Origin: a virus
IMG/VR virus record: IMGVR_UViG_3300031705_000038
Span: 1 to 26,990 of that record
Reading direction: 5' to 3' (one strand)
DNA length: 26,990 bases
Part shown: positions 17,518-20,276 of the stretch, in pieces
Position numbering within the stretch: the stretch's first letter is position 1
Layout of the letters: the number at the start of each line of letters is the position of its first letter
Made by a program: the position numbers and the translations under genes
Notes under the pieces: model-generated
Databases searched by the model: none
Seen by the model: the letters and a program-made list of their open reading frames with translations, nothing else
Told to the model about the DNA's origin: nothing

Positions 17518-17913
17518 ATGAAAAACAATAGAAACAAAGCTTGGACTACGGCGCATAGTAAAAAAGCGCAGAATTTGCATGAAATGGGTATTGATTCATT
17601 TACTATAGGTGAACAACTTGGAAGAACTTCACAGGGTGTAAGTGTTCATCTGAGTAAGTTAAGAAATAACTATGTAAGGCCTAATGTTAAACCTGCATTA
17701 AAGCCAGTTAGGCCTGCATCAATAGGAGAAATGACCGTTAAGCAGTACAGACAGCAGCGCGAAAGAATTGGCAGAGAAAGGATAAATAAGGTTGTAATGC
17801 CGCCATTAAGTAAGTTAAAGGTTGCTAAAACTTTAGTGATTAACTTTATCACTTCTATAGCTGGTGGTGCGTTAGGTGTTTGGATTGCTCTTAATTTGAT
17901 AGTAGTGTCGTAG
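17518..17913 (+). CDS. Membrane-anchored HTH protein
   Basis: 131 residues with a GGAG ribosome site. Residues about 12-50 (AHSKKAQNLHEMGIDSFTIG, EQLGRTSQGVSVHLSKLRN) form a helix-turn-helix of the Myb/GcrA-like kind; a basic Pro-rich linker follows. Residues about 106-130 (NFITSIAGGALGVWIALNLIVV) are a clear single membrane segment at the C-terminus. The protein could hold DNA at the membrane or act as a regulator; both are inference. It is followed directly by the structured gene-poor region. Confidence 0.75.
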   Translation: MKNNRNKAWTTAHSKKAQNLHEMGIDSFTIGEQLGRTSQGVSVHLSKLRNNYVRPNVKPALKPVRPASIGEMTVKQYRQQRERIGRERINKVVMPPLSKLKVAKTLVINFITSIAGGALGVWIALNLIVVS

Positions 17914-17945
17914 AAATAAAAAGGGCCGCTTGTTTAGGGCGGCCC
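17914..17945 (-). terminator. Minus-strand terminator-like hairpin
   Basis: Perfect 7-bp stem GGGCCGC/GCGGCCC (17923-17929 and 17939-17945) with AAATAAAAA on its left. On the minus strand this is a GC-rich hairpin followed by UUUUUAUUU, a good intrinsic terminator. On the plus strand it sits after a stop codon but lacks a U-run. Confidence 0.5.
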
Positions 17946-18417
17946 ATTCATGTAATATAGATTGTGTTGGTGAAGAGGTTACAGCCTCATTCGAGCCAGC
18001 GAGAGTCAGAAAAGAACCAGCGCCAACACAGGTGTTAGTTTACCATTAGCGTTATATTAACGCAATAATCTCTCCTCGCAGCATCGAATCCAGCAATAAT
18101 ATGTGGGTTTCTTTAGTGTTGCCACAATAAAAAACAACTCTCATGCCAACCACAATGGCTTAAAAAGTGGGATAGCACTTACCGCACAGGATTGATGGGA
18201 CTGACTTCAGCCAGCAGCAATGGCGAAGTACAAACATACTTAGCGGACACAGTAGGGAGCTGACCAGCTCAACATGGAAGTTGAATGGTTTATGCAAATT
18301 ACGGTAAGTGGGCTAGCAAATAGCATATTAAATGGTCAAGACTAATAGTAATATCTTACTAGGTGTCCCAAACCATCTAATGACAACTATTGCCTAAAAT
18401 AAGTGGAGCAAATAATA
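17946..18417. ncRNA. Gene-poor, highly structured interval before the helicase (candidate structured RNA)
   Basis: No credible gene in 472 bases. Perfect complementary pairs: TGTGTTGG 17963-17970 with CCAACACA 18023-18030; GCGTTA/TAACGC at 18049-18063; CACTTACCG 18176-18184 with CGGTAAGTG 18302-18310; ACTTC-A-GCCA with TGGC-GAAGT at 18204-18229; GAGCT/AGCTC at 18257-18270; TAGTAA/TTACTA at 18346-18361. GGACAC 18245-18250 pairs with GTGTCC 18363-18368, and ATGGTTT 18285-18291 with AAACCAT 18370-18376; these cross each other and the CACTTACCG helix, so pseudoknots are possible. Orientation is unclear: wobble extension of the first helix favours the plus strand, while the terminator at 17914 favours the minus strand. 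It could be a leader, a non-coding RNA or an origin. Confidence 0.4.
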
Positions 18418-19899
18418 ATGATAAGTTTAAGACCTCACCAAGAAGAAGCTATACAGATGCTAAGACAGTCGCTAAGAATGGGCAATAAGCGTCCTATACT
18501 TGCAGCACCATGTAGCTTTGGCAAAACGCGAGTAGCAGCATACCTTTGCAACGAAGCAGCCAAGAAGGGAAAACGGGTGATATTTATCTGTGACCGTATT
18601 AAACTAATTACTCAGAGTTTAGAATCATTCCATGAGTTAGGTTTAAAATTTGGTGTAATGCAAGGTCAACATGAGCTAACCAACTATTCAGCACCCATTC
18701 AAATAGCAAGTACCCAGACGCTAGCAAGACGGCAGCGAATACCAGAATTTGACCTAGCTATAGTGGACGAATGCCAAACGCATTACGCATCTCTAACTAA
18801 AATAATGAATGTTTATAATAACGTACCCTTTATTGGTCTAAGCGCAACACCTTATTCTAAAGGCTTAGGTAAGCATTACGATGACCTGATTGTGCCTATT
18901 ACCCCAAGGCAATTGCTAGATCAAAATTATTTATGCCCAGTTGACTATTATGGTGGTCGAAATGTGAATTTAAAAGGCGTTAAAACCAAACAACTATCTA
19001 CTGGCGGCAGTGATTACGACCCTAAGAGCCTTGCAGTAGCTACAGAAGAAGATAAAGGGCTGGTGGGTGATATAGTAAAGAACTGGATTGAGCATGGCGA
19101 GAATGGGCAGACTATAGCCTTTGCTCCCAGCATTAAACATTCAAAGCATCTGGTTGAAACATTCAATAATGCAGGCATCTCATCAGAACACATAGACGGA
19201 TACATGGACGGATTCGAGAGAGATATTATTTACGCTGCTCACACTAGGGGCGAGTTCAAAATACTATCATGCAGTCGTTTGCTTAACACTGGTTACGATG
19301 AGCCTACTGTATCGTGCCTGATTGATTGCTTTCCCACTAAGTCATTGATTACGTTTGTTCAACGTGCAGGCCGCATTATGCGAACCTCAGAGGGCAAAGA
19401 TAAAGCGATATACCTAGATCATGCTGGCAACGTAGCTAGACATGGATTCGCTGAAGATGTGGTTCCAGATGAGCTAGACGATGGCGAGCAAAGGTTTAAT
19501 GAAAAACAATTAACCAAAGATAAAAAAGAAGCTAAAGTTAAAGAATGTCCTCAATGCACGCAACAAATGGTTGGCTTGCGCTGCAAATGTGGTTATGAGA
19601 TACCTATCAAAGAGCAATTAGAATCTACGGATGAAATACTAACTAAGTTGTCACCAGAACAACGCAACAGGAAGCACACTAAAGAAAACAAAAGTGTTTT
19701 TTATTCTGAGCTATTATTGTACAGTAGAACTAAGGGGTACAAGGATGGTGGATGGGCAAGCCACAAGTATAAAGAAAGGTATGGTGTTTGGCCTAATGCT
19801 ATAAAGCCCCAAATGCTGGCGAATGGAATCTCAGATGAGACTAAAAAATATATAACAAGTACCCAAATAAGGTACAGTAAGCGGAGTAACGCAGCATGA
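18418..19899 (+). CDS. SF2 DNA helicase with C-terminal zinc ribbon
   Basis: 493 residues; the ATG at 18418 has GGAG about 9 bases before it, unlike the GTG at 18403. Superfamily 2 motifs are present in order: Q-like LRPHQEEAI, Walker A APCSFGKT (about 30-37), DECQ in VDECQTHY (about 115), SATP (about 142), then the second RecA domain and motif VI QRAGRIMR (about 314-322). A zinc ribbon (CPQCTQQM, LRCKCGY) lies at about 377-395, followed by a basic helical tail. It unwinds DNA using ATP, probably at replication start. It ends in an ATGA overlap with the primase-like gene. Confidence 0.93.
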   Translation: MISLRPHQEEAIQMLRQSLRMGNKRPILAAPCSFGKTRVAAYLCNEAAKKGKRVIFICDRIKLITQSLESFHELGLKFGVMQGQHELTNYSAPIQIASTQTLARRQRIPEFDLAIVDECQTHYASLTKIMNVYNNVPFIGLSATPYSKGLGKHYDDLIVPITPRQLLDQNYLCPVDYYGGRNVNLKGVKTKQLSTGGSDYDPKSLAVATEEDKGLVGDIVKNWIEHGENGQTIAFAPSIKHSKHLVETFNNAGISSEHIDGYMDGFERDIIYAAHTRGEFKILSCSRLLNTGYDEPTVSCLIDCFPTKSLITFVQRAGRIMRTSEGKDKAIYLDHAGNVARHGFAEDVVPDELDDGEQRFNEKQLTKDKKEAKVKECPQCTQQMVGLRCKCGYEIPIKEQLESTDEILTKLSPEQRNRKHTKENKSVFYSELLLYSRTKGYKDGGWASHKYKERYGVWPNAIKPQMLANGISDETKKYITSTQIRYSKRSNAA

Positions 19900-20276
19900 G
19901 CATTGAATACGTTTCTGAAGGGTTAGGTCTAAAAAGAATGGGTGGGGAATATAAGGGGCCATGCCCGTGTTGCGGCGGTAATGACAGGTTCCATATCAAG
20001 ACTGGGCGCAGTGGCAATATGATGGTCTATTGCCGATACCTATGCTCGTACAGTTCAATCATGCGTAACCTAGAAGACCGAGGTTTAATTGAGAAAGAAG
20101 ATTTTGAACGTAAAGGCCCAACAGCTTCACAGAAAGCTTTGATTGCACAGGATAGGTTGGTAATGGCTTTGTATGAGGCTGACAGGAAGGTAATGCCTGA
20201 CCCATCACTCGCTGACTTTAGACGATACCGTTTAGCCCAAGAAAGATATAACGCAATGGCCCCATTAAATAATTAA
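19896..20276 (+). CDS. Primase zinc-binding domain protein
   Basis: 126 residues. The N-terminus has the primase zinc-binding pattern: GPCPCCGGNDRFHI, then VYCRYLCSYSS (Cys23/Cys26 with Cys46/Cys50 as probable ligands). The remaining ~60 residues are helical and contain no TOPRIM or RNA polymerase domain. The start overlaps the helicase stop by 4 bases, so helicase and primase-type zinc domain are made together, like a split version of a T7 gp4-type enzyme lacking the catalytic primase part. It may recognise priming sites for a host or an unseen primase. Confidence 0.85.
   Translation: MSIEYVSEGLGLKRMGGEYKGPCPCCGGNDRFHIKTGRSGNMMVYCRYLCSYSSIMRNLEDRGLIEKEDFERKGPTASQKALIAQDRLVMALYEADRKVMPDPSLADFRRYRLAQERYNAMAPLNN

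Follow-up and report, generated by a model that had tools for sequence, protein, structure and literature searches.

A predicted family of large pseudoknotted RNAs at the head of phage helicase/primase modules

What fills the half-kilobase of phage DNA between an HTH gene that ends at 17913 and a helicase gene whose ATG lies at 18418? The locus belongs to a stretch of 26,990 nt from an uncultivated virus, analyzed here as a whole and called the window. Between 17913 and 18403 the ORF listing of the window contains no open reading frame that reaches 50 aa, whichever strand is read, in agreement with the gene-poor interval of ~0.5 kb described in the initial annotation; in the relatives described below, where that annotation had allowed for a coding gene in this place, none lies inside the element. 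When both strands were folded against dinucleotide shuffles, as had been proposed, the plus strand of 17946-18417 had a minimum free energy of -123.7 kcal/mol (z = -2.69) that none of 100 shuffles equalled, and the minus strand was likewise low in energy (z = -2.23). Since both strands are low, energy alone cannot pick the strand. At gathering thresholds Rfam 15 returned no match in the window (GOLLD, ROOL, group I and II introns, RNase P, tmRNA and 6S included), in type A, B and C relatives or in the cultured phages, and relaxing the search of the window to E values up to 10 gave a sole, 20-nt chance match. ARAGORN found no tRNA or tmRNA gene in the window. The early view that the structure belongs to no nameable RNA class thus stands, and identities as an intron, RNase P or tmRNA were rejected for want of a match to any model.

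The element opens the SF2-helicase/primase replication operon of the phage. The genes around it are as follows.

18418-19899, + strand: SF2 (ResIII/DEAD) DNA helicase, first gene 3' of the predicted RNA (Pfam ResIII 2e-20; PHROG 16 DNA helicase 2e-87)
19896-20276, + strand: gene for a primase-type zinc-ribbon protein, partner of the helicase gene (Pfam Zn_Ribbon_Prim 8e-5)
Other genes of the window: portal (4613), ERF (14181), SSB (14804), NinB (15717), NinG (16186), HTH-like (17518), terminase large subunit (21915)

Searching IMG/VR with the helicase retrieved 80 loci, and BLASTN and nhmmer detected the element in most of the closest helicase-linked loci; two motif scans enlarged the set. After clean-up, the type A 3' domain, which is that of the window, was represented by 61 distinct sequences in IMG/VR contigs, 41 of them clearly different. 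Our locus counts (112) exceed the contig counts, since some contigs entered twice. A looser pattern scan returned mostly unrelated contigs, and only L185 and L213 were added from it. A divergent group, A' (L047, L048, L050, L052, L055, L058, L060, L063, L069 and L079), keeps the helix order of type A; because the type A covariance model picks it up only weakly (L079, E = 0.083), its membership rests on topology and shared motifs and not on score. BLASTN of the window region against phage records gave chance matches only, the distant member L150 had no match in phages or plasmids, and nine exact motif matches in bacterial and archaeal genomes were all judged to be chance by profile score. Type A RNA was absent from all cultured phage and bacterial genomes searched, and our literature search found no description of it. 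Judging from sequence comparison, the element is almost certainly a conserved structured RNA of ~430 nt that forms a previously undescribed family of its own in many uncultivated phages. The novelty lies in this family and the way it is built; that phages can carry large RNAs without an assigned function is already known from GOLLD and ROOL.

The element proved slightly larger than first annotated, with a promoter from 17930 and the RNA at ~17963-18392; a pseudoknotted module of ~285 nt follows the 5' hairpin P0. Its predicted parts, 5' to 3', are listed here.

17930-17958, + strand: sigma-70-like promoter, -35 TTGTTT (17930-35), 17-nt spacer, -10 TAATAT (17953-58)
17963-18030, + strand: P0, constant 5' hairpin domain, TGTGTTGG (17963-70) with CCAACACA (18023-30)
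17975-78/17985-88, + strand: inner hairpin of P0, GAGG/CCTC
18049-18063, + strand: P0b, linker hairpin GCGTTATATTAACGC, retained in relatives with other sequence
18103-18125, + strand: P1, GTGG/CCAC hairpin that opens the type A 3' module
18145-18170, + strand: P2, H-type pseudoknot, GCC/GGC (18145-47/18157-59), loop CCAC (18150-53) with GTGG (18167-70)
18176-18310, + strand: P3, long-range helix, CACTTACCG (18176-84) with CGGTAAGTG (18302-10)
18187-18203, + strand: P3b, hairpin CAG/CTG (18187-89/18201-03), loop displaying GATGG, from RNAalifold
18194-18377, + strand: P9, pseudoknot, GATGG (18194-98) with CCATC (18373-77), crossing P3
18204-18229, + strand: P4, hairpin ACTTC/GAAGT
18235-18294, + strand: P5, CATA (18235-38) with TATG (18291-94)
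18245-18368, + strand: P8, pseudoknot, GGACAC (18245-50) with GTGTCC (18363-68), crossing P3 and P5
18257-18289, + strand: P6, GAGC/GCTC (18257-60/18267-70), loop ACCA (18263-66) with TGGT (18286-89)
18271-73/18280-82, + strand: P7, hairpin inside the span bridged by the P6 loop pairing
18377-18394, + strand: conserved 3' motif CTAATGACAACTATTGCC, immediately 3' of P9

The order of helices is P1, P2 with its loop pseudoknot (P2pk), P3, P3b (whose loop reaches the 3' tail as P9), P4, P5, P8 and P6 (whose loop pairs beyond P7). The model that we evaluated has 11 helices with 47 pairs in all, and it was set against 40 relatives in a MAFFT alignment that was not fitted to any structure. In this alignment 94.2% of the cells pair, compared with 30-40% when partners are slid by 1-3 columns, and 31 of the 47 pairs show double changes. 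The covariation score is 0.483 as against 0.150 after shuffling, a value matched by none of 500 shuffles, which do not model phylogeny. With so many types of pair at single positions, and so much less pairing in the slid versions, a chance origin of the covariation appears very unlikely. RNAalifold independently recovered P2pk, P3, P4, P5, P6a and P7, and added P3b.

Throughout type A, P2pk, P3, P4, P5, P6, P8 and P9 pair, with covariation in all except the invariant P9. P2 is paired in 41/41 sequences (CG, TA and GC types at 18146/18158), and double changes occur in 4/4 pairs of P2pk. P3, whose 9 bp the initial annotation had already picked out, is an exact repeat that is 95.4% paired with double changes in 9/9 pairs. 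P3b changes from CAG/CUG to CGA/UCG in 11 of 40 sequences. The counted pairs of P4 show double changes in 3/3 and are 100% paired; P5 is 98% paired with double changes in 3/4, and the corresponding counts are 3/3 for P6a, 3/4 for the P6 loop pseudoknot and 2/3 for P7. P8, one of two crossing helices originally proposed, is paired in 100% of cells, with C-G replaced by U-A in 12 sequences and by A-T in one (13 changed sequences after local gap correction). The P0 stem varies in concert as GTGTTGG/CCAACAC, GAGTCGG/CCGACTC, GTGTCGG/CCGACAC, GTGCCGG/CCGGCAC, GTGCTGG/CCAGCAC and CTGTTGG/CCAACAG, and P0b appears, for example, as CCCA/TGGG or TGTTAC/GTAACA. In A', P8 reads GGTGATCC/GGATCACC or GGCAACC/GGTTGCC, and P9 reads GAGGAC/GTCCTC, GAGGGC/GCCCTC or GATGGAC/GTCCATC; TCTAAATGACNACTATNG recurs in types A and A'.

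The compensatory changes in relatives thus uphold the pseudoknot-capable structured RNA proposed from the window, and with it the 9-bp helix and the first crossing helix; the functions suggested with it, a leader switch, a free RNA or an origin of replication, are weighed below. Other parts of that helix set were not retained. In 18 of 41 sequences the second crossing helix (18285-91/18370-76) would bring C opposite C, or A opposite C, at 18287/18374; the bases of 18285-91 pair instead with 18263-66 and those of 18370-76 with 18194-98. Two switch-like competing pairings, 18165-69/18176-80 and 18223-30/18236-43, lose to the covarying P3 and P4, respectively. A hairpin at 18312-15/18321-24 was ruled out by the alignment of relatives.

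Because folded DNA would covary too, and helicase and primase genes adjoin the element, we considered whether the structure acts as single-stranded DNA, for instance as a fold-back single-strand initiation site recognised by the primase. On the plus strand, non-canonical cells comprise 53 G.U against 22 A.C, half of the latter coming from one misaligned P2 column; this excess fits an RNA or a plus-sense single strand and does not separate the two. Conserved promoters that end exactly at P0 and P1 speak against the DNA reading, which we regard as very improbable.

At helicase-linked loci, -35 and -10 elements ~17 nt apart (TTGACC/TTGCAA/TTGATA and TAGAAT/TATATT) lie just 5' of P0. A distant group of loci has, in 18/18 parsed loci, TTGTAC/TTTACA/TTGTAT, 17-18 nt of varying spacer sequence, then TATATT/TACACT/TATACT, ending just 5' of P1. 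The window pair is weak, is recognised only by comparison with relatives and is not flagged by a generic promoter scan; its -35 sits within an inverted repeat (17920-29/17939-48), as the -35 of type A loci is embedded in a terminator-like inverted repeat of the upstream gene. From these comparisons, the RNA is very probably transcribed from its own promoter. We also observed that the 17920-17948 repeat of the window, with its A-run on the left, reads as a terminator of leftward transcription overlapping the RNA promoter, and that a repeat of this type is found in most type A relatives.

Since our scan found no terminator after the RNA in the window, the RNA may simply be the leader of the helicase mRNA: a cis-acting 5' leader whose fold responds to a protein, a ligand or RNA polymerase and thereby governs how far the early replication genes are read through or translated, as riboswitches, autoregulatory leaders and put-type antitermination RNAs do. 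The promoter at the RNA 5' end, the lack of a terminator before the helicase and, in the window as in many relatives, a ribosome-binding site ~25 nt past the last helix are all consistent with such a leader. However, the distant group has a T-run and a separate promoter after the RNA, and the core offers no expression-platform alternation, since the competing helices that had been proposed are not the covarying ones. Nor is the next gene constant. Every type A locus with enough sequence (100/100) has an SF2 helicase downstream on the same strand, at a distance of 18-2,088 nt, but the gene in between may be PD-(D/E)XK-like, HNH, sigma-like or a DNA methylase (named by reading the sequences rather than by database search), or there may be none. 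What comes first after the RNA thus differs between loci, and the helicase can be as much as 2 kb off. We consider a leader possible but rather doubtful. The gap between RNA and helicase appears to be an insertion hotspot in L004, L006, L011, L028 and L038, where PD-(D/E)XK-like, sigma-like, HNH and DNA methylase genes were seen.

The own promoters, the complex conserved fold and the T-run of the distant group would also suit a free trans-acting RNA that only travels with replication genes, for example one that decoys or inhibits an enzyme or a defence system of the host, or a GOLLD- or ROOL-like assembly made of RNA alone; exchangeable modules, described below, would also be expected under host-phage conflict. 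Strict helicase synteny in every judgeable locus is not expected of a free RNA, and we think this reading unlikely. ERF, NinB/NinG, helicase, primase and terminase genes flank the RNA in relatives, and in the distant group it occupies the divergent region that separates the recombination operon (ERF/exonuclease/SSB, running leftward) from the replication operon (helicase/primase, running rightward).

While the promoter and 5' hairpin are constant, the place of the 3' module can be taken by RNAs that are not homologous to it, of at least two types, B and C, and P0 is common to all three types. L014, L019 and L030, with helicases 85.8, 82 and 69% identical to that of the window, share its promoter and P0 and have another conserved RNA 3' of these; type B thus lies upstream of the same helicase, behind the same promoter and P0, and is non-homologous to type A. 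Type B loci were noted at L014:2413-2812, L019:267-681, L030:2592-3009, L054, L075-L077, L080, L305, L310, L311 and L320. In type C (L062, L066-068, L070-074 and L078; e.g. L067:1752-2130) the same P0 precedes yet another conserved RNA with structure, in which 23 pairs are doubly changed among 8 sequences. Modules are exchanged even where the helicases of two phages are 82-86% identical, which suggests that their roles are equivalent. Several type C RNAs contain short ACTAGTCA-like repeats.

Cultured phages show what else can occupy this position. Among the best cultured matches to the helicase were those of Vibrio phage 1.148.O and Pseudoalteromonas phage HS1, and both have a gene for the initiator RepL directly upstream. 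Unannotated GC-rich non-coding DNA lies upstream of the helicase in Pseudomonas phage PS-1 (614 nt, L296:3388-4000) and in vB_PaeP_YA3 (472 nt, L297:3260-3730), two pieces of which the two phages have in common. No initiator was recognised among the proteins scanned in the window, a 27-kb fragment of a genome that may encode one elsewhere, and in L043-L045 and L061 coding sequence runs up to the helicase, with neither the RNA nor a recognised initiator.

With less than even confidence, we favour the reading that the RNA belongs to the replication module as the part by which replication is started or controlled. This is our leading guess because of the strict synteny with replication genes, the RepL-equivalent slot and the module exchange. 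The RNA would be made early from a host sigma-70 promoter and fold during transcription; with P0 as a constant handle and the pseudoknotted core as an exchangeable part, it could bring in the helicase/primase, or control its entry, at the RNA's own template or close by, doing the job of the RepL-type initiator proteins that hold the same slot in related phages. The particular step is a guess, and might be an R-loop primer or a loading platform in the manner of ColE1 RNA II; a plain R-loop is not favoured because the RNA is not G-rich. The fuller proposal, that a structured RNA replaced a protein initiator and that a constant promoter/hairpin handle with interchangeable modules A, B and C sets replicon specificity, much as different repressors define lambdoid immunity, is speculative and, in our judgement, improbable as a whole. 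We found no iterons or origin-type repeats in 17900-18450, only three two-copy partial repeats, and no clear switch of GC skew at the element; an iteron-type origin was rejected on the absence of directly repeated initiator sites.

The likeness to ColE1 RNA II preprimer and RepL-type initiators is one of working only: the element stands at the replicon head and RepL holds the same slot in the Vibrio and Pseudoalteromonas relatives, but no sequence or structural relation is expected, and priming or initiation by the element is inferred. The put antiterminator RNAs of the lambdoid phage HK022 are short and nested. They too are structured early transcripts of a lambdoid-type phage, whereas the RNA here has ~285 nt with several pseudoknots. 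Group I and II introns and phage ribozymes share crossing long-range helices, and an HNH gene follows the RNA in L028, but Rfam matched no such model and no gene is interrupted. GOLLD (RF01998) and ROOL are likewise large pseudoknotted non-coding RNAs of phages and prophages, of unknown function, and GOLLD has one conserved and one variable half (PMC12286853). The present element is smaller (~430 nt), has the 5' hairpin as its constant part and has no Rfam match; GOLLD and ROOL lie near tRNA islands, whereas it is tied to helicase/primase genes in a window with no tRNA.

With this element comes a large RNA family that has no known relative, whose pseudoknots are backed by covariation and which is tied to a defined place at the head of phage helicase/primase replication modules. 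It opens to experiment the question of how replication begins in such replicons, where no initiator is recognised, and it presents an RNA locus whose handle persists while the functional module swaps between close relatives.

Two further observations concern the neighbourhood of the element. This helicase also occurs in enterobacterial lambdoid phages (L298:1780-2060, Fels-1; L299; L300; L301, Fostie; L303, PhiR12_3), and in the Fels-1/Fostie/PhiR12_3 group the DNA 5' of it has in common a G-rich tract and, after this, a (GTACATAGGTTAAG)TAGATCACTGTAT-like motif, with low folding energy against shuffles. When the P0 hairpin was compared with the leader of the divergent ERF operon (L136, L138, L144, L148, L150, L156 and L159; L084, L095, L158 and L161), the two were found to have GATGGGAG in common in some loci and TGACGG in others, so that the P0 and ERF-leader sites look as if they were changing together.
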